Shown here one piece after another: positions 4,430-38,240 of a stretch of 64,000 nt of DNA. Location of the stretch: NCBI RefSeq assembly GCF_001766675.1, contig NZ_MJLT01000023.1, forward strand, positions 248,001 through 312,000. The letters run 5' to 3'. The DNA is from Arthrobacter sp. SW1. GTDB lineage: Bacteria; Actinomycetota; Actinomycetes; Actinomycetales; Micrococcaceae. The position numbers and the translations under genes were made by a program. Within the stretch, counting starts at the first letter, position 1, and every line of letters starts with the position of its first letter. Below the pieces are notes generated by a model, which saw nothing but the letters and a program-made list of their open reading frames with translations, was not told the DNA's origin and made no database searches.

Positions 4430-4435
4430 GCATCA

Positions 4436-4479
4436 AATCTACCCCTGCCCGCGGACAGTTACTGTCCGCGTTCGCGGAC
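4436..4479 (-). promoter_or_regulatory. uvrB promoter with overlapping palindromes and a RecA-NDp/PafBC-like element
   Basis: On the - strand TAGATT (4441-4436) lies 6 nt before the uvrB ATG. Exactly 8 nt upstream of it is CTGTCCGCG (4458-4450), 6 of 9 matches to the mycobacterial RecA-independent damage promoter TTGTCRGTG-N8-TAnnnT used by PafBC. The 9-mer is one arm of a perfect inverted repeat: 10-nt arms at 4450-4459 and 4461-4470 around one T. The right arm is reused in a second perfect palindrome, gtccgcg-tt-cgcggac, at 4464-4479. The result is three alternating copies of CGCGGAC. This may be an operator or a pair of exclusive hairpins at the end of the coaE message. The assignment to PafBC is inference. 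Confidence 0.55.
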
Positions 4480-4492
4480 CCTTCCGAGCGTC

Positions 4493-5704
4493 CTAAGAAG
4501 AGTACGACGGCGGCTGCCAGCCGCTGCTGTCCGCCCAGGCTTCCATGAGGGGCAGCGCGTGTTCGGTGAACCAGGGCTCCTTCGCTTCGGCGTAACGGGC
4601 CGTGCTTGCATCCCCCGCGAAGCGTTCTGCGAGCTTTTCCTTTTCGGCCAGGTAGGCGGCCCTGCCGGACGGGTCGGCGCGGAGCCAGTCGCGGAACAAC
4701 AGGGCGTACCGCCACCCCGGGCTTCCCGCGACACGCACGTGGACATTGACCGGCTGGCCCGGATCGGCGCTGGCGTGGAAGCGCTTCAGCCAGAGGGCCG
4801 GGTCTTCGAATCCGGGTTTCGCCGTATCCCGTCCCGCCCCGGGCACCAGGGGAAAACCGGCGTCGCCGAGCGCGTCGGCGACGCGGTCCGCCGTCGCGAG
4901 TGAATCAACGGTGAGCTGCAGGTCGATGACGCCCTTGGCAGGCAAGCCGGGGACCGACGTCGAGCCGATGTGGTCCACGGCAAGCAGCTCCGGAACCGCC
5001 TTGCGGATGCGCGCGGCGAGCCGTTCGGCGATGGCCGGCCAGGCCGGATCGGACGGGACCATCCTGGCGCCGCCCTGACGTGCCGCGCGGGTCCGGGTCG
5101 CCAGGTTCCTGGCGAAGGGAAGCAGGCGCTCCTCCCAGAGTGCGTCCACCTGTGCCACGATCTCCCCGCGGGAGCCGGCGTTGTCCAGGACCACGTCCGC
5201 AGCCGCTAGCCGTTCCTCCCGGCTGGCCTGTGCGGCGATCCTTGAGCGGGCCTCGGCCTCCGACATGCCGCGCAGCGAGGTCATCCTTTGCACGCGGAGC
5301 TCCTCCGGTGCGTCCACCACGAGGACCAGGTGGAAGCTGCTCCCCTGCCCCGTTTCGACCAGTAGGGGGATATCCTGGACGACCACGCTGCCGGGGGACG
5401 CAGCCCGCATGAGTTCTGCGGCGCGGGCCCGGACCAGGGGATGGACAATCCCGTTGAGGACCTCACGGCGTGCGGGATCGGCAAAAACGATGCCGCCCAG
5501 CCGGGCACGGTCCAGCCTGCCGGCCGGGTCCAGGACCTCGTGGCCGAACGCCTCCGCCACACGCTGCAGGCCCTCGGTGCCGCGTTCCACCACCTCGCGG
5601 GCGATCACATCCGCATCGATCAGGATGGCGCCCAGCTCATTCAGGCGGGCGGCGACCAGGGATTTTCCGGAGGCGATTCCGCCCGTGAGTCCGATCTTCA
5701 ACAC
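4493..5704 (-). CDS. coaE: Dephospho-CoA kinase fused to a GrpB/UPF0157 domain
   Basis: 403 residues, about twice the size of a stand-alone CoaE. Residues 1-200 are the kinase, with P-loop GGIASGKS at 8-15 and the LID/CoA-binding segment ASREERLAAADVVLDN near 190; it phosphorylates the ribose 3'-OH of dephospho-CoA, the last step of CoA synthesis. Residues from about 245 (HIGSTSVPGLPAKGVIDLQL) are a GrpB domain, a nucleotidyltransferase-like fold. The same fusion is typical of actinobacterial CoaE, where the tail has been reported to help folding. I chose GTG 5704 (MLKIGLTGG) because TAGTCT ends 7 nt upstream, giving a leaderless message; GTG 5710 is the alternative. It diverges from the YigZ gene across 18 bp. 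Confidence 0.95.
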   Translation of the reverse strand: MLKIGLTGGIASGKSLVAARLNELGAILIDADVIAREVVERGTEGLQRVAEAFGHEVLDPAGRLDRARLGGIVFADPARREVLNGIVHPLVRARAAELMRAASPGSVVVQDIPLLVETGQGSSFHLVLVVDAPEELRVQRMTSLRGMSEAEARSRIAAQASREERLAAADVVLDNAGSRGEIVAQVDALWEERLLPFARNLATRTRAARQGGARMVPSDPAWPAIAERLAARIRKAVPELLAVDHIGSTSVPGLPAKGVIDLQLTVDSLATADRVADALGDAGFPLVPGAGRDTAKPGFEDPALWLKRFHASADPGQPVNVHVRVAGSPGWRYALLFRDWLRADPSGRAAYLAEKEKLAERFAGDASTARYAEAKEPWFTEHALPLMEAWADSSGWQPPSYSS

Positions 5705-25251: not shown

Positions 25252-25422
25252 ATGAATACCCTCCTCATCGTTGCAGGCGTCATTGCAATCGTCCTGCTGC
25301 TCGTCGGCGGATTCACGCCGGCACTGAACTTCCTCCTCTGGGTAGGAGTCATCCTGCTCGCCATCGCGGCCATCGGCTGGCTCCTGAGCTACAGCAACGG
25401 CCACCGCACGACGGGACTTTAG
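25252..25422 (+). CDS. Small two-helix membrane protein
   Basis: 56 residues beginning MNTLLIVAGVIAIVLLLVGG, then a second helix (LNFLLWVGVILLAIAAIGWLL) and a short polar tail. The ATG has GAAAGG 10 nt upstream, so it is a real gene despite its size. I cannot assign a family with confidence. It is the first gene of a + strand run with two more membrane proteins and topoisomerase IB, behind promoter A. Confidence 0.75.
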   Translation: MNTLLIVAGVIAIVLLLVGGFTPALNFLLWVGVILLAIAAIGWLLSYSNGHRTTGL

Positions 25423-25446
25423 AGGGGGCTACGAAAGGAGCACGGG

Positions 25447-25704
25447 ATGTACATAGGCACCTCGATCTTCCTCATCGCAGTGGGGGCCATCCTGGCCTTC
25501 GCCCTGACACCCGGCATCATTCCGTTCCTGGACCAGCAAATGGCCGGGTACATCCTGATTGTCGTCGGAGCCATCGGCCTGATCGCATCGTTGATCTGGG
25601 CCGGCCCGCGCCGCCGGCACAAGACCAGTGAAAGCCACCGGTCCGTGGATCCGGACACCGGCGAAGCAGTCACCCGCAGGGAGACCCGTGACACCGGCAT
25701 CTGA
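25447..25704 (+). CDS. Small membrane protein, DUF6458-like
   Basis: 85 residues with two helices (IGTSIFLIAVGAILAFAL and GYILIVVGAIGLIASLIWAGP) and a basic, Arg-rich cytoplasmic tail with VDPDTGEAVTRRETRD. This layout matches the small actinobacterial DUF6458 family, whose function is unknown. ATG 25447 has AAAGGAG about 8 nt upstream. It lies 24 nt after the previous gene. Confidence 0.75.
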   Translation: MYIGTSIFLIAVGAILAFALTPGIIPFLDQQMAGYILIVVGAIGLIASLIWAGPRRRHKTSESHRSVDPDTGEAVTRRETRDTGI

Positions 25705-25737
25705 TCCACTCCACACCGCGCCGTTCCCGGACGCACC

Positions 25738-26553
25738 ATGAACCGGGCGGCGCGGAACGCCGCCAAGTCCGCCGAGGCCGCGAGCAATTCCACGTCACTG
25801 GAAACCGCGGCCCGGGCGGGCTTTGCTGCGAGCGGCGTGCTGCATGTCCTCATTGGGGCGATCGCCCTGCAGCTGGCGCGCGGATTGAACGGAGAAGCGG
25901 ACGTGGGTGGCGCCGTCGCGCAACTCGCCGCCCGGCCGGGCGGCCCCTTCCTGTTGTGGACCTGTTTTGCCGCGTGCGCGGCCCTGGCCCTGTGGCAGGC
26001 AGGCAACGCCGTCTTCGGCAAGCCGCGGGCACACGGCAAGAAGCCCACCACGCGCCTGAGTGCCGCAGCCCAGGCGGTTGCCTTCTCAGCGATGTCCCTT
26101 ACGGTGCTTGTCTTTGCCCTCGGGGGCCGCAGCGACAGCCGCGAATCCACCAGCGACTTGAGCGTGGCGATCAGCCGGGCGCCCTGGGGCACAGCACTCC
26201 TTGCCGTGATCGGCCTTGCCATCATCGGCACCGGAATCTTCTTTGCCGCACGCGGAGCCCGCGGCGGCTTCAGGAAGGACCTCTTCCTGCCCGGCGCGAC
26301 GCTCCCCCGCAGGCTTGTGCTGGTGGCCGGGACGGCCGGGTACCTGGCCAAGGGCCTTGCCCTCCTCCTGGTGGGCCTGCTGGTCATCATGGCCGCGGTG
26401 CACCGGCAGCCTGAGCAGTCCACGGGTCTCGACGGCGGCCTGAAGGCCCTGCGTGAACAACCATACGGACCGTACCTCTTGGCAGCATTGGCGCTCGGCC
26501 TGGTCTGCTACGGCTGCTTCCTGATCCTCAAGTCCAAGTACGCGCGGATGTAG
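25738..26553 (+). CDS. DUF1206 membrane protein
   Basis: 271 residues with six hydrophobic helices in three internally similar pairs: AARAGFAASGVLHVLIGAIAL near 25, AAAQAVAFSAMSLTVLVFAL near 110, and VLVAGTAGYLAKGLALLLVGLLVI near 200. Each pair starts with a small-residue RxG...GVLH/Y-type motif, which is the DUF1206 repeat. Function is unknown; the family is often found with stress genes in soil Actinobacteria. It is followed after 6 nt by the topoisomerase gene. Confidence 0.8.
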   Translation: MNRAARNAAKSAEAASNSTSLETAARAGFAASGVLHVLIGAIALQLARGLNGEADVGGAVAQLAARPGGPFLLWTCFAACAALALWQAGNAVFGKPRAHGKKPTTRLSAAAQAVAFSAMSLTVLVFALGGRSDSRESTSDLSVAISRAPWGTALLAVIGLAIIGTGIFFAARGARGGFRKDLFLPGATLPRRLVLVAGTAGYLAKGLALLLVGLLVIMAAVHRQPEQSTGLDGGLKALREQPYGPYLLAALALGLVCYGCFLILKSKYARM

Positions 26554-26559
26554 CGGGCG

Positions 26560-27516
26560 ATGGTCCGGCTCAAGCGCAGCGATCCCGCCCGCCCGGGCAT
26601 CCGGCGGCGGCGTTCCGGCCGCGGTTTCAGCTACCGCGACGCTGACGGCCGCCCGCTGGCGCCTGAGGAGCGGGAACGCGTCAGGCAGCTGGCGATCCCG
26701 CCGGCGTGGCGGGACGTGTGGATCTGCCCGTTTCCGAACGGCCATATCCAGGCCACCGGAACCGACGGCGCCGGCCGCCTCCAGTACATCTACCATCCGC
26801 TCTGGCGCGAGCGGCAGGACGCCGAAAAGTTCCAGCGCGCCGCACGCCTTGGCCTGGCCTTGCCGAAGCTGCGCGCCATGGTTGCCCGCCACTTGCGGGA
26901 AGCAGCCTCCCCGAAGACCCGTACCCTGGCAGCGGCCGTCCGTCTGATGGACCGTGGCGCCCTGCGCATCGGCGACGAAAGCTACCGGAAGCAAAACGGC
27001 TCGCACGGACTGACCACGTTGCGCTGCCGCCATGTAAGCATCGACGGCAACATGGTGCATCTTCGCTTTCCAGGAAAGAGCGGGCAGCGGTTCGAATGCA
27101 GTTTTGCCGACGCGCGGCTGGCTGCCTTCCTGGAGCCCCTGGCCGCGCGTGCCCCGCGCGAGCCGCTTCTCGCCTTCGAGTTGGACAGCGGTCGGTTTGC
27201 ACTGGAGGCAGGAATGCTCAACGACTACATCCGCCGCTGCGCCGGCGACGGCTTTACCGCGAAGGACTTCCGCACGTGGAAAGGGACCGTTACGGCGGCA
27301 CTCAGCCTCATCCGGGCCTCCAGCGACACCCCGCCACGGGCCGCCCTGGCACAAGCCTTCGAGGACGCGGCGGCGCTGCTGGGCAACACCGTGGCGGTCG
27401 CCCGGGATGCCTACGTGGACCCGCGCGTCATAGCGGCCTTCCAGGACGGCACGCTCCGGACCCTCCCGCCGCGGGAGGCCGCCGTCGCGCAGTTCCTCAC
27501 GGACAAGGCCAGCTAA
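26560..27516 (+). CDS. DNA topoisomerase IB, poxvirus/Deinococcus type
   Basis: 318 residues. RRRRSGRGFSYRDADGRPL and IPPAWRDVWICPFPNGHIQATGTDGAGRLQYIYHP are the N-terminal clamp. The catalytic domain has RIGDESYRKQNGSHGLTTLRCRHV, KDFRTWKGTV and ARDAYVDPRV with the nucleophilic Tyr near residue 287. Type IB enzymes relax both positive and negative supercoils without ATP through a 3'-phosphotyrosine. The bacterial version is non-essential and patchily distributed. Its stop codon overlaps the convergent MerR gene (shared ctaa). It ends the membrane-protein run in the stress island. Confidence 0.93.
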   Translation: MVRLKRSDPARPGIRRRRSGRGFSYRDADGRPLAPEERERVRQLAIPPAWRDVWICPFPNGHIQATGTDGAGRLQYIYHPLWRERQDAEKFQRAARLGLALPKLRAMVARHLREAASPKTRTLAAAVRLMDRGALRIGDESYRKQNGSHGLTTLRCRHVSIDGNMVHLRFPGKSGQRFECSFADARLAAFLEPLAARAPREPLLAFELDSGRFALEAGMLNDYIRRCAGDGFTAKDFRTWKGTVTAALSLIRASSDTPPRAALAQAFEDAAALLGNTVAVARDAYVDPRVIAAFQDGTLRTLPPREAAVAQFLTDKAS

Positions 27517-27845
27517 CCGGCCGGTTTTCGCCGCCGGGCCTCGGCCGCCTGGGACTCCGCTGCCTTGGACTTGGCGAGGTCTTCGCTGAGGGAGCGGTTT
27601 TCCGCCTCAAGCTCAAGGACCATGCGGATCCCGGCCAGATTCAGGCCCTCCTCCAGGAGGACCGCTATGCGTCGCAGGACAACAAGGTCCAGCTCGCTGT
27701 AAAGACGGGTGCCGCCGGCCGTCCGCGCCGGCGTCACCAAGCCCCGACGCTCATACAGGCGAAGATTCTGCTGCCCGGTGCCCACCAGCTCAGCTGCCAC
27801 CGAAATAGCGTAGACGCCGCGCGCCTCAACTCCGGGACGGGCCAT
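27513..27845 (-). CDS. MerR family regulator, HspR-like
   Basis: 110 residues. The winged-helix domain is YAISVAAELVGTGQQNLRLYERRGLVTPARTAGGTRLYSELDLVVLRRIAVLLEEGLNLAGIRMVL, and QNLRLYERRGLV...R(L)YS is the HspR-type variant of MerR. A short coiled coil (LELEAENRSLSEDLAKSKAAE) provides the dimer. There are no metal-binding cysteines. ATG 27845 has AGGAGG 5 nt upstream. It faces away from hsp20 across a 122-bp region with an inverted repeat, so it most likely represses hsp20 and the J-domain gene, as HspR does for dnaK. Confidence 0.85.
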   Translation of the reverse strand: MARPGVEARGVYAISVAAELVGTGQQNLRLYERRGLVTPARTAGGTRLYSELDLVVLRRIAVLLEEGLNLAGIRMVLELEAENRSLSEDLAKSKAAESQAAEARRRKPAG

Positions 27846-27869
27846 GCAACTCCTCCTGATAAAAAGCTG

Positions 27870-27930
27870 TTGCACCAGCTGGGTGCCGGTGCTATAAGAA
27901 ATATATACCCGCTGATATAGATTTAGCGGG
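27870..27930 (+). promoter_or_regulatory. hsp20 promoter and inverted-repeat operator
   Basis: TTGCAC (27870-27875), 17 nt, TATAAG (27893-27898) form the promoter. Just downstream, CCCGCT (27908-27913) and AGCGGG (27925-27930) are a perfect inverted repeat 11 nt apart. It lies at about the transcription start, a repressor position, and is not the mycobacterial HAIR sequence. The divergent MerR/HspR-like protein is the obvious candidate to bind it. Confidence 0.6.
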
Positions 27931-27967
27931 CTGAAGGGTAGTAATCATCCGTAAGGAGTGAGAGACC

Positions 27968-28390
27968 ATGCTGATGCGCACCGATCCCTTCCGCGAGTTC
28001 GACAGGCTCGCACAGCAGGTGTTCGGTACCACCGCCCGCCCGGCCGTCATGCCGATGGACGCCTGGCAGGAAGACGATGAATTCATTGCCGCGTTCGACC
28101 TTCCAGGCGTGGACCTGGAAACCATCGACCTCGATATCGAGCGCAACGTCCTGACCGTCCGCGCCGAACGCAAGGCTCCCGCTGGAGAAGGCACGGAACT
28201 GGTCGCGGCCGAGCGCCCGCAAGGTGTCTTCAGCCGCCAGCTGATCCTCGGCGACGCGTTGGACACCGAAGGCGTCAAGGCAAGCTATGACGCCGGCGTC
28301 CTGACCGTCCGGATTCCGGTTGCCGAAACAGCGAAGCCCCGGAAGATCGAAATCTCCTCCAGCGAGCAACGCCAGGAGATCAGCGCCTGA
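27968..28390 (+). CDS. Hsp20/alpha-crystallin small heat shock protein
   Basis: 140 residues with a short N-terminal arm ([20 protein letters not shown]), an alpha-crystallin domain at about 35-125 ([42 protein letters not shown]) and a short tail. It lacks an exact IXI motif, with the segment KPRKIEI instead. It acts as an ATP-independent holdase for unfolding proteins. GTAAGGAG is well placed upstream of ATG 27968. It is transcribed from a promoter shared with a back-facing MerR regulator and followed by a J-domain gene. A second Hsp20 at 53.6 kb is only distantly similar. Confidence 0.93.
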
Positions 28391-28482
28391 CCCATCCCTA
28401 TCCCCCGATCACACCGTCCGTTCGATGGCCTCCGGTACCGCCCGGGGGCCATCGGCACCTGCCGCACGAAAAGCGCCTGTCC

Positions 28483-28800
28483 ATGCTTCCCGACTACTAC
28501 GCCCACCTTTCTGTGTCCCCCGCTGCCACCCGGGCCGACATCGCCCGCGCCTACCGGATGCTCATGCGCACCCACCACCCCGACGCCGGCACTCCCGACG
28601 GCGGGGCCGACCCGCAGGCTCTCCAGCAGGCCATGGACGCTTACGCCGTGCTGTCCAGCCCAAGTCGCCGTGCCGCCTACGACCGTGCGCTGAAGCAGCA
28701 GGCACGGCCGGACCGCCCCGCCGCTCGGCCACGCAGATCCCGCACCCAGGCAGACGGGCTACTCATCGCCGTCGGGCCCGTCCGCATCGAAAGGCGCTAG
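28483..28800 (+). CDS. J-domain (DnaJ-like) protein
   Basis: 105 residues. The J-domain fills residues 3-68 (DYYAHLSVSPAATRADIARAYRMLMRTHHPDAG... DAYAVLSSPSRRAAYDRAL) with the HPD motif that stimulates DnaK ATPase. There is no zinc finger or client-binding domain, and the tail is basic. It may recruit DnaK to a particular partner, with Hsp20 upstream an attractive one. ATG 28483 has no clear ribosome site. Confidence 0.85.
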   Translation: MLPDYYAHLSVSPAATRADIARAYRMLMRTHHPDAGTPDGGADPQALQQAMDAYAVLSSPSRRAAYDRALKQQARPDRPAARPRRSRTQADGLLIAVGPVRIERR

Positions 28801-28832
28801 GCTACCGGAACGGGGCGCTACTGGAACGGGAC
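28801..28832. repeat. Two tandem 16-nt repeats upstream of the isochorismatase gene
   Basis: gctaccggaacggggc (28801-28816) is followed by gctactggaacgggac (28817-28832), 14 of 16 matching. It lies between the J-domain stop and the ribosome site AAGGAGG of the next gene. Confidence 0.6.
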
Positions 28833-28846
28833 ACCAAGGAGGCAGA

Positions 28847-29413
28847 ATGATCGCGGTGCTGGTCATCGACATGCAGAACGCCTACTTTGAGGATCCGGCA
28901 CTGGACGTGCACCGCGAACGGACCATCCAGGGATGCAATGCCCTGATCGCCTCCGCCCTCAGCCACGCGGTGCCGGTGCTGCTGGTGAAAACGGAACACG
29001 AACAGGACCGCTCCACCTGGACCCTGAACATGCTTGATGACAATCAGGGCTTCATCTTCCGCGGAAGCAGCCAGGCGGAGTTCCTGCCCGGACTGATCAC
29101 GGCGGGCCTGCCGCAGCTCACCAAGATCCGCGACAGCGGTTTCATCGGAACCGAACTGCTCTGGCGCCTGCACAACTGGCGGGTGGACACCTTGGTCCTG
29201 GCCGGGGTCTCGGCCCACAACTGCATCGCCCAGACGGCCGCGGATGCCTTCGCGCACAACTTCCGCGTGATCCACGCCGTGGAGGCGATCGCGGGCAACG
29301 ATCCGGAGCTGGAAGACAGGACGCGGGAGCTCCTGGCTCGCGAATACCGGCAGAAAATGCTCAGCAACGCGGACATCACGGCACTGTTTGCCACGGCGGG
29401 CGCCACCCCTTGA
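28847..29413 (+). CDS. Isochorismatase-family cysteine hydrolase
   Basis: 188 residues. The family triad is visible: Asp8 in VLVIDMQNAY, Lys in LTKIRDSGFIGTEL near residue 94, and Cys in VSAHNCIAQTAADAF near 127. Members hydrolyse amides (nicotinamide, peroxyureidoacrylate, biuret) or vinyl ethers such as isochorismate. No neighbour shows the substrate. AAGGAGG lies 6 nt before the ATG. The next gene has its own promoter, whose -35 overlaps this stop codon. Confidence 0.88.
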   Translation: MIAVLVIDMQNAYFEDPALDVHRERTIQGCNALIASALSHAVPVLLVKTEHEQDRSTWTLNMLDDNQGFIFRGSSQAEFLPGLITAGLPQLTKIRDSGFIGTELLWRLHNWRVDTLVLAGVSAHNCIAQTAADAFAHNFRVIHAVEAIAGNDPELEDRTRELLAREYRQKMLSNADITALFATAGATP

Positions 29414-29438
29414 ACCCGCCTGCCCTTGGTCCTAGCGT
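29410..29438 (+). promoter_or_regulatory. Promoter of the SRPBCC gene at 29503
   Basis: TTGAAC (29410-29415), 17 nt, TAGCGT (29433-29438). The -35 overlaps the isochorismatase stop codon. Transcription would begin near 29445, giving a leader of about 58 nt with a GGAGG site. Confidence 0.65.
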
Positions 29439-29502
29439 GGAAATGAGGCCAAAGGCCCTCGAACCGTCCAGGGCCTGACCGGGATCGCAGGAGGGATCTG
29501 CC

Positions 29503-29967
29503 ATGGCCACTGTCCACGAATCAATCCGCGTCAACGTGCCGCTGTCCCAGGCGTATAACCAGTGGACACAATTCGAGGAATTCCCGCACTTCATGAGCGG
29601 AATCCAGGAGGTCCGCCAGGTTGACGAAGCCCTGGTCCACTTCACCACCGGGATGGCCGGTGTCCGCCGGGAATTCGACGCACGGATCACCACCCAGGTG
29701 CCGGACGAGAAGATCGCCTGGGAAAGCGTGGATGTCCCGCACAACAAAGGCGAAGTGACGTTCCACGCCTCCAGTCCCACCGAAACCGAAGTCACCGTGG
29801 ACCTGGACTGGGAGCCGGAATCGCCGGCCGAACGGCTGGGCGCAGGCGCCCACCTCGACGAACGCCTGGTGAAGAAGGACCTCCGGAAATTCAAGGAGTT
29901 CATCGAAGGCCGCGAAGTCGAGACCGGCGCATGGCGCGGAACCATTACCGAAGGGCACGTGGAGTAG
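29503..29967 (+). CDS. SRPBCC (START-like, cyclase/dehydrase-type) protein
   Basis: 154 residues forming one SRPBCC ligand-binding fold: ESIRVNVPLSQAYNQWTQFEEFPHFMSGIQEVRQVDE is the N-terminal strand and the helix-grip opening, and IAWESVDVPHNKGEVTFHASSPTETEVTVDLDWEPES the central strands. The family binds hydrophobic ligands; this short type is common in multiple copies in stress regions of Actinobacteria, with unknown ligands. A paralogue with the same VxVPxxxAYNQWTQFExFPxFMSG core lies on the other strand at 32952-33488. It converges with the CYP152 gene across 22 nt. Confidence 0.88.
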   Translation: MATVHESIRVNVPLSQAYNQWTQFEEFPHFMSGIQEVRQVDEALVHFTTGMAGVRREFDARITTQVPDEKIAWESVDVPHNKGEVTFHASSPTETEVTVDLDWEPESPAERLGAGAHLDERLVKKDLRKFKEFIEGREVETGAWRGTITEGHVE

Positions 29968-29989
29968 CCGGTTTCAAGGAGCGGCGCAG

Positions 29990-31285
29990 CTACCGCCGCC
30001 TGCGCCGCTCCAGTACCAGGCCGCTGCGCGGCAACGCCGGGATCTTCGCCAGGTCCACAGTGAGGTCCTGCGCGGGCACGGTCCATCGCTCATCCGTGGC
30101 CAGGATCCGCAGCGCACGGTGCAGCAGTTCCATGGTCATGTCTTCCCCCGGGCAGCGGTGGCCTTGCAAAGGATCGCCCGCGCCCTGCGGAATGAGGCCG
30201 AACGGCCCCGGCTGCACGTCCCCCGTGGCGGCGGGCCGGAACCGTTCGGGCTGGAACGCCCCGGGATCCTCGAAGATCCGCGGGTCGTGGTTGCTTCCGT
30301 ACAGGTCGAGGATGGCCCAGTCACCCTGCGTGAAGGAGTGGCCGTGCCACTGCAGGGCCTGCCTGGCCGTGCCCGCCACGAAGGGGAAGAACGGATAGAA
30401 GCGGCGGACTTCCTGCGCGAAGCATTCGAGGTCCACCTTGTCGCCGCCGGCCAGGACGGGCCGCCACTCCGGATGGCGGTGCAGTGCCAGCGCGGCGAAG
30501 ACGATGTACCGGCCCACGGCCACCACCGGGCGGAACAGGTTCAGGAGTTCGACGGCGGCAACCTCCTCGGGGAGCAGCCTCCCCTGCAGGTCGCGGTGGA
30601 GTGCGACGGCGAGCGCCGGGGCCAGCTGCGCGAGCATCGCGTGGTGCCCGGCGCTGTCCGTGTCCCCGATACGGCTGCCTCCGGCACCGTCCGCGCCGGA
30701 ACGGAGCCGCCGGACGCAGTCCCGGGCCCAGGCTTCTGCCGCGCGGCGCCGCCGTCGGGCATGCCAATTGGCCGGTCCGAAACCCGCGGCCTGTTCGACC
30801 ATCAGCTGCAGGTCCCTCGCCCGCAGGGCCGCCGTGCCGGGATCCACCGGGAGGCCGGACCAGCGGAACACGGCGGAGGCCAGCACCGCAGAGACGTCTT
30901 CGTACAGGATGATCCTACGCGGCCGGCGGACCTCGGCACGGTCCCATTCTTCGTCGAAATAGTGGCCGAGCTCCTGCGCTCCATGCCCCTCGGCCACATC
31001 GATGAAGAGGTCCTTGCGGTGGCGGTGTGCTTCGCCTTCGAGGGCCTGGACGCTGCCGGCATCCTGCAGCAGGTGCTTGGCTGAGCGGGGTATGGCACGT
31101 GCGCGGACGAAGCGTCCGCCGTCGTAGAAGAACTCGGCCGCCTCGGCGCCCCGCATGCACACCACCGGGCGCAGGAACAGGCGGGTCCGGAAAGCATCCG
31201 TTCCCAGCCTGTCACAGGTGGCTGAGACAAAGGTGTAACCCTGCCTCAGGAGAGGCAGGGTACTGTCGGGCAGGCGCGGGATCAT
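29990..31285 (-). CDS. Cytochrome P450 of the CYP152 fatty-acid peroxygenase family
   Basis: 431 residues. QDAGSVQALEGEAHRHRK near residue 74 holds the CYP152-type distal region, with LFRPVVAVGRYIVFAA around 250 carrying the Arg-Pro that replaces the usual acid-alcohol pair and binds the fatty acid carboxylate. FYPFFPFVAG, EVRRF and the haem-thiolate loop GHRCPGE near 373 follow. CYP152 enzymes use H2O2 directly to hydroxylate or decarboxylate fatty acids, so no redox partner is needed, and none is nearby. It ends a - strand operon with baeRF2, after a gap of 4 nt, and a stress role (peroxide plus lipids) is plausible. Confidence 0.9.
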   Translation of the reverse strand: MIPRLPDSTLPLLRQGYTFVSATCDRLGTDAFRTRLFLRPVVCMRGAEAAEFFYDGGRFVRARAIPRSAKHLLQDAGSVQALEGEAHRHRKDLFIDVAEGHGAQELGHYFDEEWDRAEVRRPRRIILYEDVSAVLASAVFRWSGLPVDPGTAALRARDLQLMVEQAAGFGPANWHARRRRRAAEAWARDCVRRLRSGADGAGGSRIGDTDSAGHHAMLAQLAPALAVALHRDLQGRLLPEEVAAVELLNLFRPVVAVGRYIVFAALALHRHPEWRPVLAGGDKVDLECFAQEVRRFYPFFPFVAGTARQALQWHGHSFTQGDWAILDLYGSNHDPRIFEDPGAFQPERFRPAATGDVQPGPFGLIPQGAGDPLQGHRCPGEDMTMELLHRALRILATDERWTVPAQDLTVDLAKIPALPRSGLVLERRRRR

Positions 31286-31289
31286 GCGG

Positions 31290-31538
31290 CTAGTCGCTCG
31301 GGCTCAGCTTCGTGGTCAGGCTGCGGTCGTCCACAGTGGCATCGTCCTTTTCCTCCGCGGGCCCGCTGGGGTCCTTGGACCCTGCCATTCCGGGCAATCC
31401 CGTGGATTCTCCGCCCAGGTTTCGCGGCGCACGGACTTCGGGCCCGTCGTCGCCGGCTTCCCCATAGGCGTCGCGGGGCACCAGGTGCGCGGGGTTCTGG
31501 ATGCCGTCATGGACCAGTGGCGCGCTCTTGCGCTTCAT
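31290..31538 (-). CDS. Small uncharacterised hydrophilic protein
   Basis: 82 residues beginning MKRKSAPLVHDGIQNPAHLVPRDAYGE. It is charged and Gly/Pro/Asp-rich, with no hydrophobic helix, so probably disordered. AGGAAAGAG precedes the ATG. It lies between baeRF2 and CYP152 in the same operon (13 and 4 nt gaps). I do not recognise the family. Confidence 0.7.
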   Translation of the reverse strand: MKRKSAPLVHDGIQNPAHLVPRDAYGEAGDDGPEVRAPRNLGGESTGLPGMAGSKDPSGPAEEKDDATVDDRSLTTKLSPSD

Positions 31539-31551
31539 TGCTCTTTCCTCC

Positions 31552-32712
31552 TCAGGCCGCAGGTTCAGCCGGGGTGGGCGGCCCCACCGGCCACCTCAGC
31601 AATGCGGCGATTTCCACTCCTCCGGGCATTTCCGCGCCCGGAAGCATTGCAACGCCGGCGTCCGTCAACACGGCCGCGCGCAGCAGCGCAGCGGGTGCGG
31701 GAGCCTCTCCCAGCACGCCGGCGCCGGAGCTTTCGGCTTCGGTGGACGCGATCCAAGGCTCGGCGTCCAAGGCCAGGACGCGGCGTTCGCGCAGGGCCTC
31801 ATCGCCAAGGATGAGGGTGTCCACCTGGGCCTGCTGCAGGGCGTGAACCACTGAACCCAGTCCGGTGACGCACAGCGGTGCGGCCTGTCCTTGTTCCTCG
31901 GCAAGCCGGTTCACCAGCGCTTCGTCGTCCTCGGCCCATTCCCGGGCCACGATCACGGCCACTTCGGCGTCGAGGGCATCGGGGTCCGCGCCGCCGGTGC
32001 GACTGTGCAGGTCCACGGTGCGCAGTTTGGCACGGGTCTCTTCAGCAAGGGCACCAGCCACCAGTTCGCGCGCCTTCACGTCGCCGGCGAGGATCACGAT
32101 CCTGGCACCGCTTTCCCGGGCGAGCGCGTCCAGCCGGGCCGCAACCTCGGTGGCGTTCTGGCGCCATACCTCTTCGGTCCGGTGCTGGTAGCTGTACTGC
32201 GCCCAGCCGCCGCCGGGATGCTTGCTGACGTTTTCGCCGGAGCCCTTTACTTCTTCAGTGCGGACGGCGTCCTTGGCGTGGCCGGCCAGCGAGCGCCCTG
32301 CCCGGTGCAGCCGGATCTCCGCGTCCTGGCGCCCCACTTCTGCCACCACATAGGGGTAGTCGTCAGGTTGGTGCAGCGCCAAGGGCAGCAGGTCCGGAAT
32401 GACGCCGGCAGTTACCTGCTCGGCGATCACGGGCGGCCCCGGAAGGATCTCGTTGACGTCCACCTGGCCATGGCTCACCACTGCGAAGCGGCTCACCGGC
32501 TGCGGTTCTCCGGCGGCCGGCTGGAGGACCTCCACCAAGGCGTCGACGTCCGTGCGCGCGGCGCCTTGGCCGGCGAGGGCGTCACGGATGTTCCCGGGCG
32601 CGGCATCGGCGGCCTCCATGCGCTCCACCGTTCCGGCACCGGCATCCACGTAGGCCGTGCACCAGGGGCCACGGCGGCGGAGCAAGGGTGCCAGGTCTGC
32701 GAGGCAGGTCAT
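31552..32712 (-). CDS. baeRF family 2 protein (Rv2629-like, Vms1/eRF1-related)
   Basis: 386 residues. A bacterial version of the archaeo-eukaryotic release factor domain: VKGSGENVSKHPGGGWAQYSYQHRTEEVWRQNATEVAARLDAL (about 155-197) matches the baeRF2/Rv2629 core, including the glycine-rich GGGWAQ segment that corresponds to the GSQ/GGQ loop of Vms1 and eRF1. A Rossmann-like middle domain and a C-terminal L7Ae-like domain (VVHALQQAQVDTLILGDEA) follow. Eukaryotic Vms1/ANKZF1 releases stalled chains from ribosomes; the bacterial role is not established. Here it sits with SRPBCC and CYP152. Its ATG overlaps the stop of the upstream small gene. Confidence 0.85.
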   Translation of the reverse strand: MTCLADLAPLLRRRGPWCTAYVDAGAGTVERMEAADAAPGNIRDALAGQGAARTDVDALVEVLQPAAGEPQPVSRFAVVSHGQVDVNEILPGPPVIAEQVTAGVIPDLLPLALHQPDDYPYVVAEVGRQDAEIRLHRAGRSLAGHAKDAVRTEEVKGSGENVSKHPGGGWAQYSYQHRTEEVWRQNATEVAARLDALARESGARIVILAGDVKARELVAGALAEETRAKLRTVDLHSRTGGADPDALDAEVAVIVAREWAEDDEALVNRLAEEQGQAAPLCVTGLGSVVHALQQAQVDTLILGDEALRERRVLALDAEPWIASTEAESSGAGVLGEAPAPAALLRAAVLTDAGVAMLPGAEMPGGVEIAALLRWPVGPPTPAEPAA

Positions 32713-32942
32713 CGTTCATCGCCGCCTCGGTCGTCGCCAGTGGCGCCCTCGTCCGCGTCATCCCTGTCCGTGTCATCGGGGAATGGTTCGGTTTCCCGCC
32801 ATTCTTCAACGTGGGCGGGCTTGTTGCCCTTCATGGCCCCCTGGGTTTCCTGTTTCATCTTGTCGTCGAGCCGCGGGCCGTGGGTGGTGTTTCCCCGCTC
32901 GGCTTCCTGCGCGGCTCCGGATTCAACTCCGTAGTCAGCCAT
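32709..32942 (-). CDS. Small acidic hydrophilic protein
   Basis: 77 residues, very acidic C-terminal half (PFPDDTDRDDADEGATGDDRGGDER), with no hydrophobic core and probably disordered. It overlaps the baeRF2 start by 4 nt and begins 9 nt after the SRPBCC stop, so it is part of the operon. The ATG has GAGGAGCA upstream. Family not recognised. Confidence 0.7.
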   Translation of the reverse strand: MADYGVESGAAQEAERGNTTHGPRLDDKMKQETQGAMKGNKPAHVEEWRETEPFPDDTDRDDADEGATGDDRGGDER

Positions 32943-32951
32943 GGCTGCTCC

Positions 32952-33488
32952 TCAGAAGTCCCTTCCGCCGGTGGGCGGAGGCGGCTCCTCGTCCAGCATG
33001 GTTCCGCCGGAGCCTGCCGGCGGCTCGTCGACTTCGCCAGCCACCACGGTGGAGCGCCAGGCGCCGGTCTCCGTGCCGCGGTTCTCGATGAACTTCTTGA
33101 ATTTGTTCAGGTCTGCGCCCACCTGGAGTTCGTCGACTCCGACGGCGGCACCGGTCTTCTCAGCGACGCCTTCCGGCGTCCACTCGATGGTGACGTTGAC
33201 GCGCGTCCGGTCCGGGCCCAAGGGCTCGAAGCGCACCAGTCCGGCGTTGCGCGGCCCGTCCACGCTTTCCCAGCTGATGACGGAGTCCGGCACCTGGTCC
33301 AGGATCCGGGCATCGTATTCACGGTGCACGCCCGCGGTGTTGGTCGAGAAATGGAGGGTGGTGTCATCAAGTTGCCTGACGGACTCCACCCCGCTCATGA
33401 ATTCGGGGAAGGTTTCGAACTGTGTCCACTGGTTGTATGCCGTGGTCACCGGAACCTCAACCTCAATGGTCTGATCGACAGTAGCCAT
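32952..33488 (-). CDS. SRPBCC (START-like) protein, paralogue of 29503-29967
   Basis: 178 residues. TVDQTIEVEVPVTTAYNQWTQFETFPEFMSGVESVRQLDD and VISWESVDGPRNAGLVRFEPLGPDRTRVNVTIEWTPEG are the same fold and core as the gene at 29503. A Pro/Gly-rich C-terminal tail of about 30 residues (PPAGSGGTMLDEEPPPPTGG) is extra. I chose ATG 33488 with GGAG 7 nt upstream rather than the GTG just before it. It heads the SRPBCC-baeRF2-CYP152 operon behind promoter motif B. Confidence 0.85.
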   Translation of the reverse strand: MATVDQTIEVEVPVTTAYNQWTQFETFPEFMSGVESVRQLDDTTLHFSTNTAGVHREYDARILDQVPDSVISWESVDGPRNAGLVRFEPLGPDRTRVNVTIEWTPEGVAEKTGAAVGVDELQVGADLNKFKKFIENRGTETGAWRSTVVAGEVDEPPAGSGGTMLDEEPPPPTGGRDF

Positions 33489-33560
33489 CACGTTCTCCTC
33501 ACATAGTGGATTCGATGGGATGCGGTGCTACCTTTTTCACGCTATCGAGGGCTCCGGCGA

Positions 33561-33591
33561 ACATCAAGGCATTTTGCTAAGTCTGCTTATC
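33561..33591 (-). promoter_or_regulatory. Stress-island motif B, overlapping the GH13 stop codon
   Basis: On the - strand GATAAGCA-GA-CTTA (33591-33578) followed by TGCC-T-TGATGT (down to 33561) repeats the layout of motif A at 25057-25085. The dyad TAAGCAGACTTA (33589-33578) is imperfect only at its two central bases. The motif overlaps the last codons and stop of the upstream GH13 gene and lies 72 nt before the SRPBCC ATG. Confidence 0.5.
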
Positions 33592-35337
33592 TTTTTTGCC
33601 GGAAGTGTTCCGGGCCTCCGCTTCCTTGGCGGAGTAGGTGGTCTGGACCTCGGGAACAACGCCCTGGCCGCCACCGTCCGAGGCCAGCCGGAGCCAGCGG
33701 AAACCGTAGGGCCCCAGCCGAAGCCGCAGCGCACCGCCGTCGCCGATGTCCCGGCCCGGCCCGCCAAGCAGGTCCCGCACGGTGGCTCCTTCGTGCTCCG
33801 CGCCGAGCTTGAGGGTCACTGTTGCCGGTTTCGCGGCGAAGTTGTGCACCGCGATCATCGAAGCCCCGTCCCAGCTGCAACGGTGGGCCAGCACGTTCGG
33901 CACCGGCTGTTCGAGGAGCTCGAAGCTCCCCCACGCCATTTCCGGGTACTCGCGGTAGATGCGGATCAGCTCGCGGATGAAGTTGAAAAGCGACGCCGGG
34001 TCCCGCTTCGCTGCTGACACGTTGACGTGCCGCGGCCCAAAGCTGCCCTTCACCGGCGGGCGGGCCAGTTCGGACGCCGGGCGCGCCGAAAACCCGCCGT
34101 TGGGTGCGGAGCCCCACTGCATCGGGGTACGGACCGCCATCCGGTACCCGAGCGAGGCATCCTCCCCCATGCCGATTTCCTCGCCGTAGTACAGCGACGG
34201 CGTGCCCGGGAGCGAGAACAGCAGCGAGTAGGCAAGCCTGAGGCGGGCGGGATCGCCGTCGAGCATGGGGGCGAGCCGCCGCTTAAGGCCGCGGTTGTAC
34301 ACCTGGAACTTCTTCTGCGGCCCGAAGGCGGCAAAGACCTCGGCGCGTTCGGCTTCCGTCAGCAGGTCCAGCGCAAGCTCGTCGTGGTTCCGCAGGAACG
34401 TGGCCCACTGGACGGCGGCCGGCACCTCCGGGCGGTTCTTCAGCACGCCGGCCACCGGCCCGGCATCTTCCCTGGCCATGGCGAGGTAGCAGCTCTGCAT
34501 GAGCGGGAAGTCGAAGATCATGTCCAGTTCTCCGCCGTCGGATCCGCCGAACAGCTCCAGCTGGTGGCGGTACATCAGGTCCACCTCGCCCAACAGCACG
34601 GAGTGCCCGCGGCGGCGGCCCATGAAGGTGCGCAGCTCGCGGAGGAAACCGTGCGGATCGGTGAAGCCAAGTTCGTTTTCGATGGTGTCGTGGATGCCCA
34701 CCGTCAACAGCTGCGGGACCGCATCCACGCGGAAGCCATCGAAGCCCAGCTCCAGCCAGAAGCCGATGATCTTGGCGATTTCGTCCCGCACCTTCGGGTT
34801 GGCCATGTTCAGGTCCGGCTGGTGGGCGTAGAAGCGGTGCAGGTACCAGTGCCCCGTGATGGGATCGTGGTTCCAGATGCTGTCCTCTTCCTCGTGGAAC
34901 ACCACCGCGTCCGAGGTGTCCGGCGGCGGGTCGGCCCGCCACACGTAGTAGTCGCGGAAGCGGTTGTCCACGCTGGAACGCGACTCCTTGAACCAGGGGT
35001 GCTCGGTGCTGGTGTGGTTGACCACGAGGTCCGCGATGACCCGGATGCCGCGGTGGTGGCACGCCCTGAGGACCTCCACCAGGTCGCCCAGGCTGCCCAG
35101 CCGCGGGTCGACGCCGTAGAAGTCGGTGATGTCGTAGCCGTCGTCGCGGTTGGGGCTCGGATAGAACGGCATCAGCCACAGGCAGGTGACCCCGAGGTCG
35201 GCGAGGTAATCAATCCGTTGGGCCAGGCCGGCGAAGTCACCCACGCCGTCGTCGTCCGAGTCCATGAACGTTTCCACGTCCACGCAGTAGATGACCGCGC
35301 TCTTCCACCAGAGATCGGCGGAGTCCGAGATGCGCAT
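33577..35337 (-). CDS. Trehalose synthase-like GH13 alpha-amylase family enzyme
   Basis: 586 residues. The barrel starts WWKSAVIYCVDVETFMDSDDDGVGDFAGLAQRIDYL, as in TreS. The catalytic residues are visible: nucleophile Asp in GFDGFRVDAVPQL near residue 200, acid/base Glu in VLLGEVDL near 248, and the third Asp in FLRNHDEL near 320. The conserved insertion regions of TreS (maltose-trehalose isomerase) are partly changed, for example LLGEVDL instead of LLAEANQ, so the product is uncertain. There is no fused maltokinase. AAGGAG lies 6 nt before the ATG, within the stop of the upstream LLM gene. Motif B lies across its 3' end. Confidence 0.88.
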   Translation of the reverse strand: MRISDSADLWWKSAVIYCVDVETFMDSDDDGVGDFAGLAQRIDYLADLGVTCLWLMPFYPSPNRDDGYDITDFYGVDPRLGSLGDLVEVLRACHHRGIRVIADLVVNHTSTEHPWFKESRSSVDNRFRDYYVWRADPPPDTSDAVVFHEEEDSIWNHDPITGHWYLHRFYAHQPDLNMANPKVRDEIAKIIGFWLELGFDGFRVDAVPQLLTVGIHDTIENELGFTDPHGFLRELRTFMGRRRGHSVLLGEVDLMYRHQLELFGGSDGGELDMIFDFPLMQSCYLAMAREDAGPVAGVLKNRPEVPAAVQWATFLRNHDELALDLLTEAERAEVFAAFGPQKKFQVYNRGLKRRLAPMLDGDPARLRLAYSLLFSLPGTPSLYYGEEIGMGEDASLGYRMAVRTPMQWGSAPNGGFSARPASELARPPVKGSFGPRHVNVSAAKRDPASLFNFIRELIRIYREYPEMAWGSFELLEQPVPNVLAHRCSWDGASMIAVHNFAAKPATVTLKLGAEHEGATVRDLLGGPGRDIGDGGALRLRLGPYGFRWLRLASDGGGQGVVPEVQTTYSAKEAEARNTSGKKDKQT

Positions 35338-35339
35338 GC

Positions 35340-36314
35340 CTACTCCTTCCCGTCCCGCGCCTCAACAAACGGCAGGACCTCCCGGCCGAAGCAGTCGATG
35401 AAGGGCCCCAGTTCCTGGCCCACGTGGTGCAGGTAGATCTCCTCGAAGCCCAGCCGGGCGAAGCCCGTCAGCCACTCAATGTGCCGGGCCGGATCCGCAG
35501 ACACCAGCACGGCCTCGGTGACATCGTCGACGGCGGCGCCGGCCGAATGCTGTTCGAACTCTTCCGTCGTGGCCAGGTCCCAGGCATGCGGCGGCGACAC
35601 CGTCGCATTGCGCCACTGCCGGAGCGCGAGCTCCTCCGCCTCGGCTTGGGTTGCCGCCCAGCTGAGATGGACCTGCAGCACGGCCGGACCGCGCCCTCCG
35701 GCGGAACGGTACGCGTCCAGCACATCGCGGAGGGCAGGCTCCGGCTGGTTCACCGTGATGATGCCGTCGGCCCAGGCCGCCGAGCGCCGTGCCGTCTGCG
35801 GGGACACCACGGCGGCCAGCAAGGGCGGCCGTTCGGCGGGCCGGTCCCAGACCTTGGCGCCGCTGAGCCGCACCAGGCCGTCATGGTCCACGGTCTTGCC
35901 CTCGTGCAGGGAACGGATGGCCTGCGCGCATTCCTCCAGGCGGCGCTGGCGGGTTTCCTTGTCCGGCCAGGCATCCCCGGTAATGCTTTCGTTGATGTTT
36001 TCGCCGCTGCCCAGGGCCATCCAGAACCTGCCCGGGAACATGTCGGCCAGGGTGGCCGAGGCCTGGGCGATGACCGCCGGGTGGTAGCGCTGGCCGGGCG
36101 CGGTGACGGTGCCGAAACGGAGCCCGGTATCCGCCAGCGCCGCCCCCAGCCAGGACCAGGCGAAGCCGGAATGCCCTTGCTCGCGGGACCACGGGTTGAA
36201 GTGGTCCGAGCACATGGCTGCGGCGAAACCGGCGGCTTCCGCGCGGCGCATGTCCGCGAGCAGGCGGCCGGGCCCGATTTGTTCGTGCGAAGCGTGGATT
36301 CCGATAAGCACCAT
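35340..36314 (-). CDS. LLM-class flavin/F420-type oxidoreductase
   Basis: 324 residues, a luciferase-like TIM barrel: MVLIGIHASHEQIGPGRLLADMRRAEAAGFAAAMCSDHFNPW, then GQRYHPAVIAQASATLADMFPGRFWMALGSGENINE, and the flavin-phosphate region near WADGIITVNQPE. It resembles the group of LLM oxidoreductases, thought to use flavin rather than F420, that is often next to TreS-like GH13 genes, as it is here (2 nt between stop and start). I chose ATG 36314 because family members begin close to GxHASHEQ; ATG 36332 is possible. The substrate is unknown. Confidence 0.8.
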   Translation of the reverse strand: MVLIGIHASHEQIGPGRLLADMRRAEAAGFAAAMCSDHFNPWSREQGHSGFAWSWLGAALADTGLRFGTVTAPGQRYHPAVIAQASATLADMFPGRFWMALGSGENINESITGDAWPDKETRQRRLEECAQAIRSLHEGKTVDHDGLVRLSGAKVWDRPAERPPLLAAVVSPQTARRSAAWADGIITVNQPEPALRDVLDAYRSAGGRGPAVLQVHLSWAATQAEAEELALRQWRNATVSPPHAWDLATTEEFEQHSAGAAVDDVTEAVLVSADPARHIEWLTGFARLGFEEIYLHHVGQELGPFIDCFGREVLPFVEARDGKE

Positions 36315-36392
36315 TGCCTTCCGGTCTATCATCGCCCCGGGGGTCGTGTCGATGCCCCCGGGCCCGTTGAGCCAGGCGGCATGGCCGCAGGC

Positions 36393-38240
36393 TCAGGGCG
36401 CCGGGGTGACCACCATGGCCGAGCCGCCGCCCCGGCGGCGCGGCTCCGCGGCGGCGAGCAGGCCGCCGTCGGGCAGGAATTCGATGGCCGTCGCGGCCCC
36501 GATCTCGGCCGCCGAGGTGAAGGCGTCACCGGACGGGACCAGCTTGTGCCCGAACGGGGCCAGCTGGCTTCCGTAGGCCGTGATGAACTCCGGTTCGGCC
36601 GTGACATTGGCTGTATTCCGTTGGGCCGCCCGCGGTGCGGCGAGCGCCTCCGGCGTGGTCATGCCGCGGTCCACCCGGTTCAGGATGGTCTGCAGCACGG
36701 TGGTGATGATCGTGGAGCCGCCGGGCGAACCGAGGGCCAGGAAGGGCTTGCCGTCCTCCAGGATGATGGTGGGCGACATGGACGAGCGCGGCCGCTTGCC
36801 GGGTTCGATCCGGTTGGGATCGGCCGGGTTGTACACGGTGGAGAAGTCCGTGAGCTCATTGTTCAGCAGGAAGCCGCGGCCCGGCACCACGATGCCCGAG
36901 CCGCCGGTCTGTTCGATGGTCAAGGTGTACTCGGCCACGTTTCCCCACTTGTCGGCGACGGTCAGGTTGGTGGTGGAGATGTTCTCCGTGTCCGCCTCTT
37001 CGGCGAAGGCCGCAGCGGCGGCCGGGCACGCGCCGTCGTAGTTGGTGACGTCACCGGGGGCCACGGGCTTCACCACCGCCTGCAGCGGATCGACTTCGCA
37101 GGCACGCTCCTTGCCGAACAGCTCATCGGTGAGGGCCGCCGTCGGGACGTCCACGAAGGCGGGGTCGCCCACGTACTTGCCGCGGTCGGCGAAGGCCAGG
37201 GCACTTGCCTCCAGGTAGTGGTGCAGCGCGTCGGCGTCGGGCATCTCCGACACGTTGAAGGTGTCCAGGATGTTGAGCGCCTCGCCCACCGTGGTGCCGC
37301 CGCTGCTGGACGGCGCCATGCCGTAGACGTCCAGGCCGCGGTAGTTCACGTGGCTCGGGGCCTGGTCCAGCACGCGATAGGCGGCCAGGTCGGCTGCCGT
37401 CATGTGGCCGGCCGGGACGGGCAGCTGCGTGTCCGGATCCTTCGGCGGGGCCTGGACCGTGGCGGCAATCTCTTCGGCGAGCGCGCCGCCGTAAAAGGCG
37501 CCCGCTCCCTGTTCCGCGAGCAGCCGGTAGGTGGCGGCGAGCTCATGGTTCCGGAAGACGCTGCCGACGGCGGGAGCGTCGCCGCCGGGGAGGAACAGCT
37601 TGCTGGTGGAGGTGAACGCCTCGAAGCGGAGCTTGTTGTCCAGGGTCTGCTGGCGGAAGGTCTGGTCCACGATGAAGCCGCGGGTGGCCACCTTGATGGC
37701 CGGTTTGAGCGCTTCGCCAAGCGTCAGGCTGCCCCAGCGGTCCAAGGCGCGGTTCCAGGTGGCAGGCGTCCCGGGAACGCCGACCGAGACGCCGCTGGTG
37801 ACCAGCTCTGGGGTGAAGCGGTAGGGGCTGCCGGCGGGGTTCTCCGGGGTGACGGTGGCAGGGTCGATGAACGCGTCGTGCGGCATCGCTGCCGGCGCGG
37901 TTTCGCGGCCGTCGATGGTGCCCACCTCGCCGCTGGCGGCATCGTAGTAGACGAAGTAGCCGCCTCCACCGATGCCGGCGCTGTACGGTTCCGTGACGCC
38001 GAGCGTTGCGGCGGCTGCGACGGCGGCATCGGCCGCGTTGCCTCCCTTGCGCAGGACCTCGATCGCCGCTGCCGAAGCCTCCGGGTCCACGGTGCTCACC
38101 GCTCCCCCGTAGCCGGTGGCGGTTGCGGTCTTGGTTACCGTCCGGGGGTCTGCGCTGGCCGGGCTGAGGACGGCTCCGCTGGTGATGCTGAGGGCCAGGA
38201 CTGCCGTTGCTGCGGCGAGACGGCGTTTCACTTCAGGCAT
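36393..38240 (-). CDS. ggt: Gamma-glutamyltransferase
   Basis: 615 residues with an N-terminal signal peptide (LAAATAVLALSITSGAVLSPASA). The large subunit contains EPYSAGIGGGGYFVYYDAASG and GRETAPAAM. The autoprocessing site is ENISTTNLTVADKWGN, whose Thr becomes the catalytic N-terminus of the small subunit; the usual following His is Asn here. PRSSMSPTIILEDGKPFLALGSPGGSTI is the oxyanion loop. It is exported and splits glutathione and other gamma-glutamyl compounds. GGGAG precedes the ATG by 5 nt. The neighbours are transport genes on the same strand. Confidence 0.95.
   Translation of the reverse strand: MPEVKRRLAAATAVLALSITSGAVLSPASADPRTVTKTATATGYGGAVSTVDPEASAAAIEVLRKGGNAADAAVAAAATLGVTEPYSAGIGGGGYFVYYDAASGEVGTIDGRETAPAAMPHDAFIDPATVTPENPAGSPYRFTPELVTSGVSVGVPGTPATWNRALDRWGSLTLGEALKPAIKVATRGFIVDQTFRQQTLDNKLRFEAFTSTSKLFLPGGDAPAVGSVFRNHELAATYRLLAEQGAGAFYGGALAEEIAATVQAPPKDPDTQLPVPAGHMTAADLAAYRVLDQAPSHVNYRGLDVYGMAPSSSGGTTVGEALNILDTFNVSEMPDADALHHYLEASALAFADRGKYVGDPAFVDVPTAALTDELFGKERACEVDPLQAVVKPVAPGDVTNYDGACPAAAAAFAEEADTENISTTNLTVADKWGNVAEYTLTIEQTGGSGIVVPGRGFLLNNELTDFSTVYNPADPNRIEPGKRPRSSMSPTIILEDGKPFLALGSPGGSTIITTVLQTILNRVDRGMTTPEALAAPRAAQRNTANVTAEPEFITAYGSQLAPFGHKLVPSGDAFTSAAEIGAATAIEFLPDGGLLAAAEPRRRGGGSAMVVTPAP

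Follow-up and report, generated by a model that had tools for sequence, protein, structure and literature searches.

The locus analyzed here is a run of five minus-strand open reading frames (ORFs) in Arthrobacter sp. SW1, located between positions 33488 and 29990 of a 64,000-nucleotide stretch of contig NZ_MJLT01000023.1 (hereafter the window) within a genome of 4.1 Mb. The run contains a gene for a protein of the Balon/Rv2629 type (baeRF2, hereafter also the factor), directly preceded by a gene for a small acidic protein, sm77. From 5' to 3' the genes were arranged as SRPBCC1, sm77, baeRF2, sm82 and CYP152. SRPBCC1 and sm77 are 9 nucleotides (nt) apart, sm77 and baeRF2 overlap by 4 nt, and gaps of 13 nt before sm82 and 4 nt after it complete the run. 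The features of the locus were as follows:

32952..33488, minus strand: SRPBCC1, Polyketide_cyc/SRPBCC protein of 178 amino acids (aa), heading the run (Pfam)
32709..32942, minus strand: sm77, acidic small protein of 77 aa (ORF; conserved module; no Pfam or NCBIfam match)
31552..32712, minus strand: baeRF2, Rv2629/Balon-type protein of 386 aa, predicted ribosome-hibernation factor (PF18844, NF052289, 8v9k_z, Foldseek)
31290..31538, minus strand: sm82, protein of 82 aa with no family (ORF)
29990..31285, minus strand: CYP152-type P450 of 431 aa, predicted H2O2-dependent fatty acid hydroxylase (Pfam, NCBIfam, PDB match)
29503..29967, plus strand: SRPBCC2, paralogue of SRPBCC1 (56% identity across 154 aa) in convergent orientation to the run, with 22 nt between it and the end of CYP152

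A sequence-only reading of this stretch had described the run with gaps of at most 13 nt and two overlaps. The ORFs confirmed the five genes and their coordinates, and the gaps of 9, 13 and 4 nt stood, while the sm77/baeRF2 overlap, the 4 nt ATGA, was the sole one within the run. The identities given to baeRF2, SRPBCC and CYP152 agreed with the Pfam, NCBIfam and PDB matches. A scan of 29000-36500 restricted to sigma-70 promoters gave no promoter-like site (0.4 expected in shuffled sequences). Three terminator-like sites were detected in the same interval (4.6 expected), all of them on the opposite strand. A single transcript for the five genes is plausible on this layout.

The five-gene order was not seen at the other loci examined, and neither CYP152, SRPBCC nor sm82 was seen next to baeRF2 there; the sm77-baeRF2 pair did recur. 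Conservation of gene order, named as a check in the sequence-only reading, which counted the lack of a conserved neighbourhood as a refutation, was absent for CYP152 and present for sm77 and baeRF2. The small-protein family of sm77 and the Balon-type factors co-occurred and were repeatedly linked, in several gene orders. A total of 296 Actinomycetes genomes were surveyed at E 0.001 for the Rv2629-type gene and with a small-family profile built from an alignment of 18 of 21 members. The small family was present in 87 genomes and the Rv2629-type gene in 116; 67 genomes had the two together (odds ratio 10.9). The window genome was one of 30 among these 67 in which the genes were located within 6 kb of each other, compared with 0.16 expected under uniform placement (additional fragments of a factor gene that had already been entered were omitted from this count). 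The 30 close pairs spanned 8 families and 18 genera, and all of their factors matched the profile at E 1.1e-47 or better. In 16 pairs the small gene came first on a shared strand and in two the factor did; 11 pairs were divergent and one was convergent.

Within the family of the window genome (149 genomes), 27 had the small gene, and 24 of these also gave a strong factor match (odds ratio 31), the two genes being adjacent in 11 of the 24, again including the window; of 66 genomes that matched baeRF2, 17 did so by weaker or partial matches only and were left out of the family counts. Within the genus, factor genes were found in 19 of 61 genomes, one of them broken (G202), and the small gene was kept at 11 of the 18 full-length loci, the window being one. 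Absences throughout are soft, since no more than a limited set of candidates from its first look goes on to be scored by the search tool.

Among the best 80 of 336 named loci, a selection biased to the query type, the factor was present in the 4-kb flanks of 31 and no factor was seen at 49. The order factor-then-small-gene was found at 16 Nocardia loci, 14 of them with 23-48 nt between the two genes, and at three Streptomyces loci of this selection; small-gene-first was found at 12 Streptomyces loci, where the factor lay 1.5-2 kb further on. In a tree of 65 factors, gene order required five changes among the linked rows, the minimum for four states being three. Repeated rearrangement of the pair has modest support from this tree, and only modest because of its long branches; it is a quick tree in which every factor from outside the family is a linked one, and one of its linked states is a single row. 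Neighbour clustering was carried out on 29 class loci, which were our choice from the 87 and biased to strong matches. Besides the small family itself, the factor was the sole neighbour recurrent in at least five bacterial families; single-linkage clustering, by way of fused members, placed CBS proteins in one cluster with the small family. A module search across the whole Actinomycetota gave 15/246, and plasmid searches for the module yielded two unannotated records in one case and a single one in the other.

The baeRF2 protein is a Balon-like factor, as judged from its sequence and predicted fold. It matched PF18844 (baeRF_family2) with 141.9 bits (cut-off 26.9) over profile positions 1-149 of 149, which places it in that family. 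Its only PDB sequence match at E <0.001 (phmmer) was the ribosome-bound Balon Rv2629 (8v9k_z, E 2.3e-19, residues 10-325). When the AlphaFold model was searched with Foldseek, PDB ranks 1-5 were all Balon (E 1.1e-19 to 1.2e-9, TM (template modelling) score 0.56-0.64), comprising two mycobacterial proteins (three entries) and that of Psychrobacter (two entries). A third Psychrobacter Balon entry was found at rank 7, and archaeal and eukaryotic release factors ranked after these. The predicted eRF1/Pelota-like fold is therefore closest to Balon, and the assignment of baeRF2 to the Rv2629 kind in the sequence-only reading was borne out. Weaker matches to acVLRF1 (40.8 bits) and baeRF_family10 (43.2 bits) were also obtained.

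Balon has been counted among the hibernation factors since 2024, and to our knowledge little is established about its on/off switching. As reported in the sections of PMC10901736 drawn on here, Rv2629 and Msmeg1130 bind the A site, associate with EF-Tu, inhibit translation in vitro and lack GGQ and NIKS; Rv2629 is induced by hypoxia and published Balon genes are located in stress operons. Such families were proposed as non-catalytic A-site blockers (Burroughs and Aravind, 2019, PMC6514570, in the part cited here). Ribosome hibernation by the window protein may be inferred by homology. In the 65-sequence alignment, W170 of the hydrolase loop was kept in 63 sequences and Q172 in 18, the window protein among the latter. 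The translation rescue proposed in the sequence-only reading is not supported by the state of this loop across the alignment, nor by the A-site hibernation described for the solved homologue.

The window protein shares with Balon, Rv2629 and Msmeg1130 sequence similarity, a predicted eRF1-like fold and a stress-gene neighbourhood, but differs in that an undescribed small gene would here be translationally coupled to the factor. The neighbours named in the cited sections of PMC10901736 are RaiA, Hsp20, OsmC/OsmY, HdeD, RtcB, MarC/EmrB and Hrp1; the sm77 family is not among them. With family 2 of the baeRF-1 clade, the protein shares the PF18844 whole-domain match and a degenerate loop, as in families 1, 2 and 6, whereas the neighbourhood described in the cited part of PMC6514570 is HPF, with no small partner of the sm77 kind named there.

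The sm77 proteins form an undescribed small-protein family of Actinomycetota. Their conserved module, (A)ERGNTTHGPRLDDKMKQETQG..HVEEWRETEP, comprises about 45 residues, and many baeRF2 loci had, directly upstream, an ORF encoding roughly 70-80 aa in which the pattern ERGNTxHGPxLDDxMKHExQG...HAEEWRETEPFPDDTD was recognised. Codon comparison of 20 members placed 3812 of 6317 differences at the third position, and the median ratio of non-synonymous to synonymous substitution (dN/dS) was 0.14 over 73 pairs, indicating purifying selection; sm77 is therefore a real protein-coding gene. Neither sm77 nor sm82 matched any Pfam or NCBIfam family at E 0.01. For ten members scanned per library (Pfam, NCBIfam), no profile covering the N-terminal module was found among the matches listed at E <=1. 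All of their matches (for the longest lists, the best 25 rows) lay from about residue 60 on, and concerned DUF2795, CBS, CBS-bearing families and two weak hits below cut-off. A literature search including three motif strings, to which most subscription papers and all preprints were outside scope, found no description of the family, in part as judged from titles and the opening lines of abstracts.

Several architectures were distinguished. The Micrococcales form has about 65-80 aa, forms with a C-terminal DUF2795 (PF11387) have about 120-140 aa, and the module was fused to a CBS pair (PF00571) in two Pfam-confirmed members of 197 and 232 aa. In Phytoactinopolyspora spp. (L223-L226, ~3995-4591), an sm77-type module was the N-terminus of a 196-198-aa protein, and the same form of fusion at L134 and L145 matched the Pfam CBS family. 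Two archaeal hibernation factors, HibA and Dri, carry CBS modules, and one of the two factors binds AMP (PMC13324472, in the part cited here). The likeness is that CBS is tied to hibernation in both cases; in contrast to HibA and Dri, Pfam reported no HPF domain in the scanned module fusions, which belong to another phylum. The parallel is an analogy, suggestive and no more.

Just upstream of the factor gene at L116, a short ORF with MAERGRAPFILFSKEEGKQ occupied the usual place of the small gene and looks like its remnant after an internal deletion. At L192, L197, L214 and L217, an sm77-type gene also stood near other small genes, presumably ChaB-like, and no factor was nearby. A second small acidic family of about 95-115 aa, with a motif near RRGHGKMPEDVDDDDYQ, was found in several Micrococcaceae-like genomes, either following the Rv2629-type gene or preceding the sm77-family gene. 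Its members were:

L110, 9110-9397, minus strand
L115, 9316-9603, minus strand
L213, 5202-5507, minus strand
L216, 5171-5518, minus strand
L222, 4581-4913, plus strand

The CYP152 protein was closest in the PDB to a fatty acid alpha-hydroxylase (3awm_A, E 2.9e-90), in line with a peroxygenase. As in the CYP152 peroxygenases P450 SP-alpha, BS-beta and OleT, the haem Cys motif (GHRCPGE) and the R-P segment (FRPVV) were retained, and the protein aligned with P450 SP-alpha over 422 residues. We take the active-site Arg of the FRPVV segment to bind the carboxylate. The enzyme itself looks intact. It differs from the known proteins in that it scored below the cut-off of the CypC equivalog NF053744 (392.5 against 600 bits), and its genomic context was not seen in the other genomes searched.

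The sequence-only reading had coupled this peroxygenase to baeRF2. Among the 149 family genomes, a strong CYP152 was present in 14, a strong baeRF2 in 49 and both in five (odds ratio 1.15, p 0.77), and the two were within 20 kb of each other only in the window genome, one of the 14. These counts omit 15 of 29 genomes with weak or partial P450 matches, including a 58-residue CYP152-like fragment (G008), and two fragments of one CYP152 gene in G109 were counted once. In the genus, CYP152 was found in three of 61 genomes, weak P450 matches being excluded, and the two besides the window genome had no baeRF2. At the CYP152 loci of these two (L086-L088), none of the other operon genes of the window was found, and the neighbours differed. 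A literature search for a CYP152 fatty acid peroxygenase with a gene cluster found nothing, most subscription papers and all preprints being outside its scope. CYP152 was rejected as a member of a conserved system, given no excess co-occurrence and adjacency in the window genome only; it is a lineage-specific neighbour without special tie to translation.

SRPBCC1 scored 65.6 bits against Polyketide_cyc (cut-off 23.4). Of the 61 genus genomes, 56 carried homologues, among them every one of the 18 whose factor gene is full-length. A homologue lay within 6 kb of the factor in the window genome alone (1/18), and SRPBCC1 was rejected as a factor partner on this ground. A type II toxin of the Rv0910 type (NF047960, cut-off 100 bits) was also considered for the SRPBCC proteins and rejected; SRPBCC2 scored 16.2 bits and SRPBCC1 gave no match at E 0.01. 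Homologues of sm82 were found in 28 of 101 genus genomes. In six of 13 stretches from genus members (L323, L325-L329), sm82 and SRPBCC1 homologues lay 0.6-3.4 kb apart, and these six also carried a hydrophobic protein of about 52 aa, homologous to that at 25252-25422 of the window. No factor or CYP152 was seen in the 13 sm82 stretches at E 1e-5 and >38% identity. The sm82-SRPBCC-hydrophobic-protein group reads as a separate stress-type island, and since sm82 and SRPBCC homologues stand together without the factor in relatives, the window operon looks like such an island merged with a dormancy pair.

A plus-strand run of stress-type genes occupies 25252-29413 of the window, with small membrane proteins, Hsp20 (27968) and an isochorismatase (28847). 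The ORF at 26560 may encode a type IB topoisomerase, and that at 28483 we take to be DnaJ-like.

The explanation we favour, and hold to be somewhat probable, is that a conserved two-gene dormancy unit forms the core of a stress operon at this locus, with sm77 as the putative translation-coupled partner or regulator of the Balon-type factor. Several points weigh against it. The small gene was missing at seven of the 18 genus loci and is therefore not essential to the factor. Of the 67 class genomes that carry both genes, 37 showed no factor within 6 kb of the small gene, some pairs being hidden by contig breaks, and no Rv2629-type gene was detected in 20 of the 87 genomes with the small family. 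The two Pfam-confirmed CBS fusions (G406, G308) were on contigs other than that of the factor. The Rv2629-type label is loose, because matches at E 0.001 include four of 14 control genomes (archaea, Thermus) and only 15 of the 296 class genomes exceed the curated cut-off. The window protein itself scored 191 bits against NF052289, the Rv2629 equivalog (covering 3-357 of 357), below the cut-off of 320, and is therefore labelled Rv2629-type only. The expectation under uniform placement ignores the clustering of stress genes and genome kinship, and the Fisher values carry no correction for phylogeny. Both models are modest: the mean pLDDT (predicted local distance difference test) of baeRF2 was 69.9, with a root mean square deviation of 6-7 Å to Balon, and that of sm77 was 61, with one predicted helix (residues 23-39, HGPRLDDKMKQETQG) and a low-confidence chain for the remainder. 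Finally, the loop of the window protein, GGWAQ, retains the glutamine and resembles the GGxSQ of acVLRF-1, so that the window protein may still be capable of peptidyl-tRNA hydrolysis.

It is possible, if somewhat improbable, that the small gene and the factor adjoin only to be expressed together, as members of a co-regulated stress island that share a regulon, sm77 acting elsewhere, for example as a general protectant. The clustering of sm82 and SRPBCC homologues without the factor in relatives would fit this, as would the stress operons of the published Balon genes (PMC10901736, sections cited) and the many small-family genes that are not near a factor. However, the factor was the only other recurrent neighbour at the 29 chosen loci, SRPBCC homologues did not accompany it outside the window in the genus, and the pair persists though gene order changes.

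An antitoxin-like brake, with the acidic sm77 keeping a translation-blocking factor inactive during growth, would suit a small, acidic, upstream and overlapping gene whose product is mostly a low-confidence chain, and would suit the translation inhibition reported for Rv2629 and Msmeg1130; we consider it unlikely, because factors without the small gene, as at the seven genus loci, are unexpected for a toxin-antitoxin pair, and the small gene is downstream at the 16 Nocardia loci of the named selection. The link between translation rescue by peptidyl-tRNA hydrolysis and lipid damage handled by SRPBCC and CYP152, proposed in the sequence-only reading, is very improbable and was not supported, since the tight packing in the window genome, the acVLRF1 and baeRF_family10 matches and the GGWAQ loop that speak for it are set against a CYP152 unlinked in the other genomes searched, a loop glutamine kept in a minority of the alignment and hibernation factors as the closest solved relatives.

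Under the two-gene dormancy unit that we prefer, the factor would enter the ribosomal A site under stress and shut down translation with no peptide release, by homology with Balon and Rv2629. The ATGA overlap would couple translation of sm77 and the factor and keep their amounts tied. The sm77 module has one predicted helix, and the remainder of the protein is acidic and probably disordered. The module may serve for docking or regulation by binding either the Balon-type factor itself or its complex with the ribosome, and this binding would set the start or the end of hibernation. What the surveys show is recurrent linkage and co-occurrence; such binding and regulation, like co-transcription, are inferred. 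CBS or DUF2795 domains on the same module elsewhere could add sensing. SRPBCC1, sm82 and CYP152 would be local additions, probably co-expressed stress genes, so that the operon may have arisen by the joining of a stress island to the dormancy pair, CYP152 standing last in it.

More tentatively, and with some doubt on our part, the sm77 family might constitute a new, Actinomycetota-wide class of hibernation cofactor, with the docking module used alone or fused to CBS or DUF2795 for energy or stress signals. The link between a peroxygenase and translation was an attractive idea and is corrected here as unsupported. A small family that tracks Balon-type genes across several gene orders offers a concrete candidate for a regulator or cofactor of these factors, and its members should be simple to express and assay, in a phylum to which Streptomyces, Nocardia and the mycobacteria belong.

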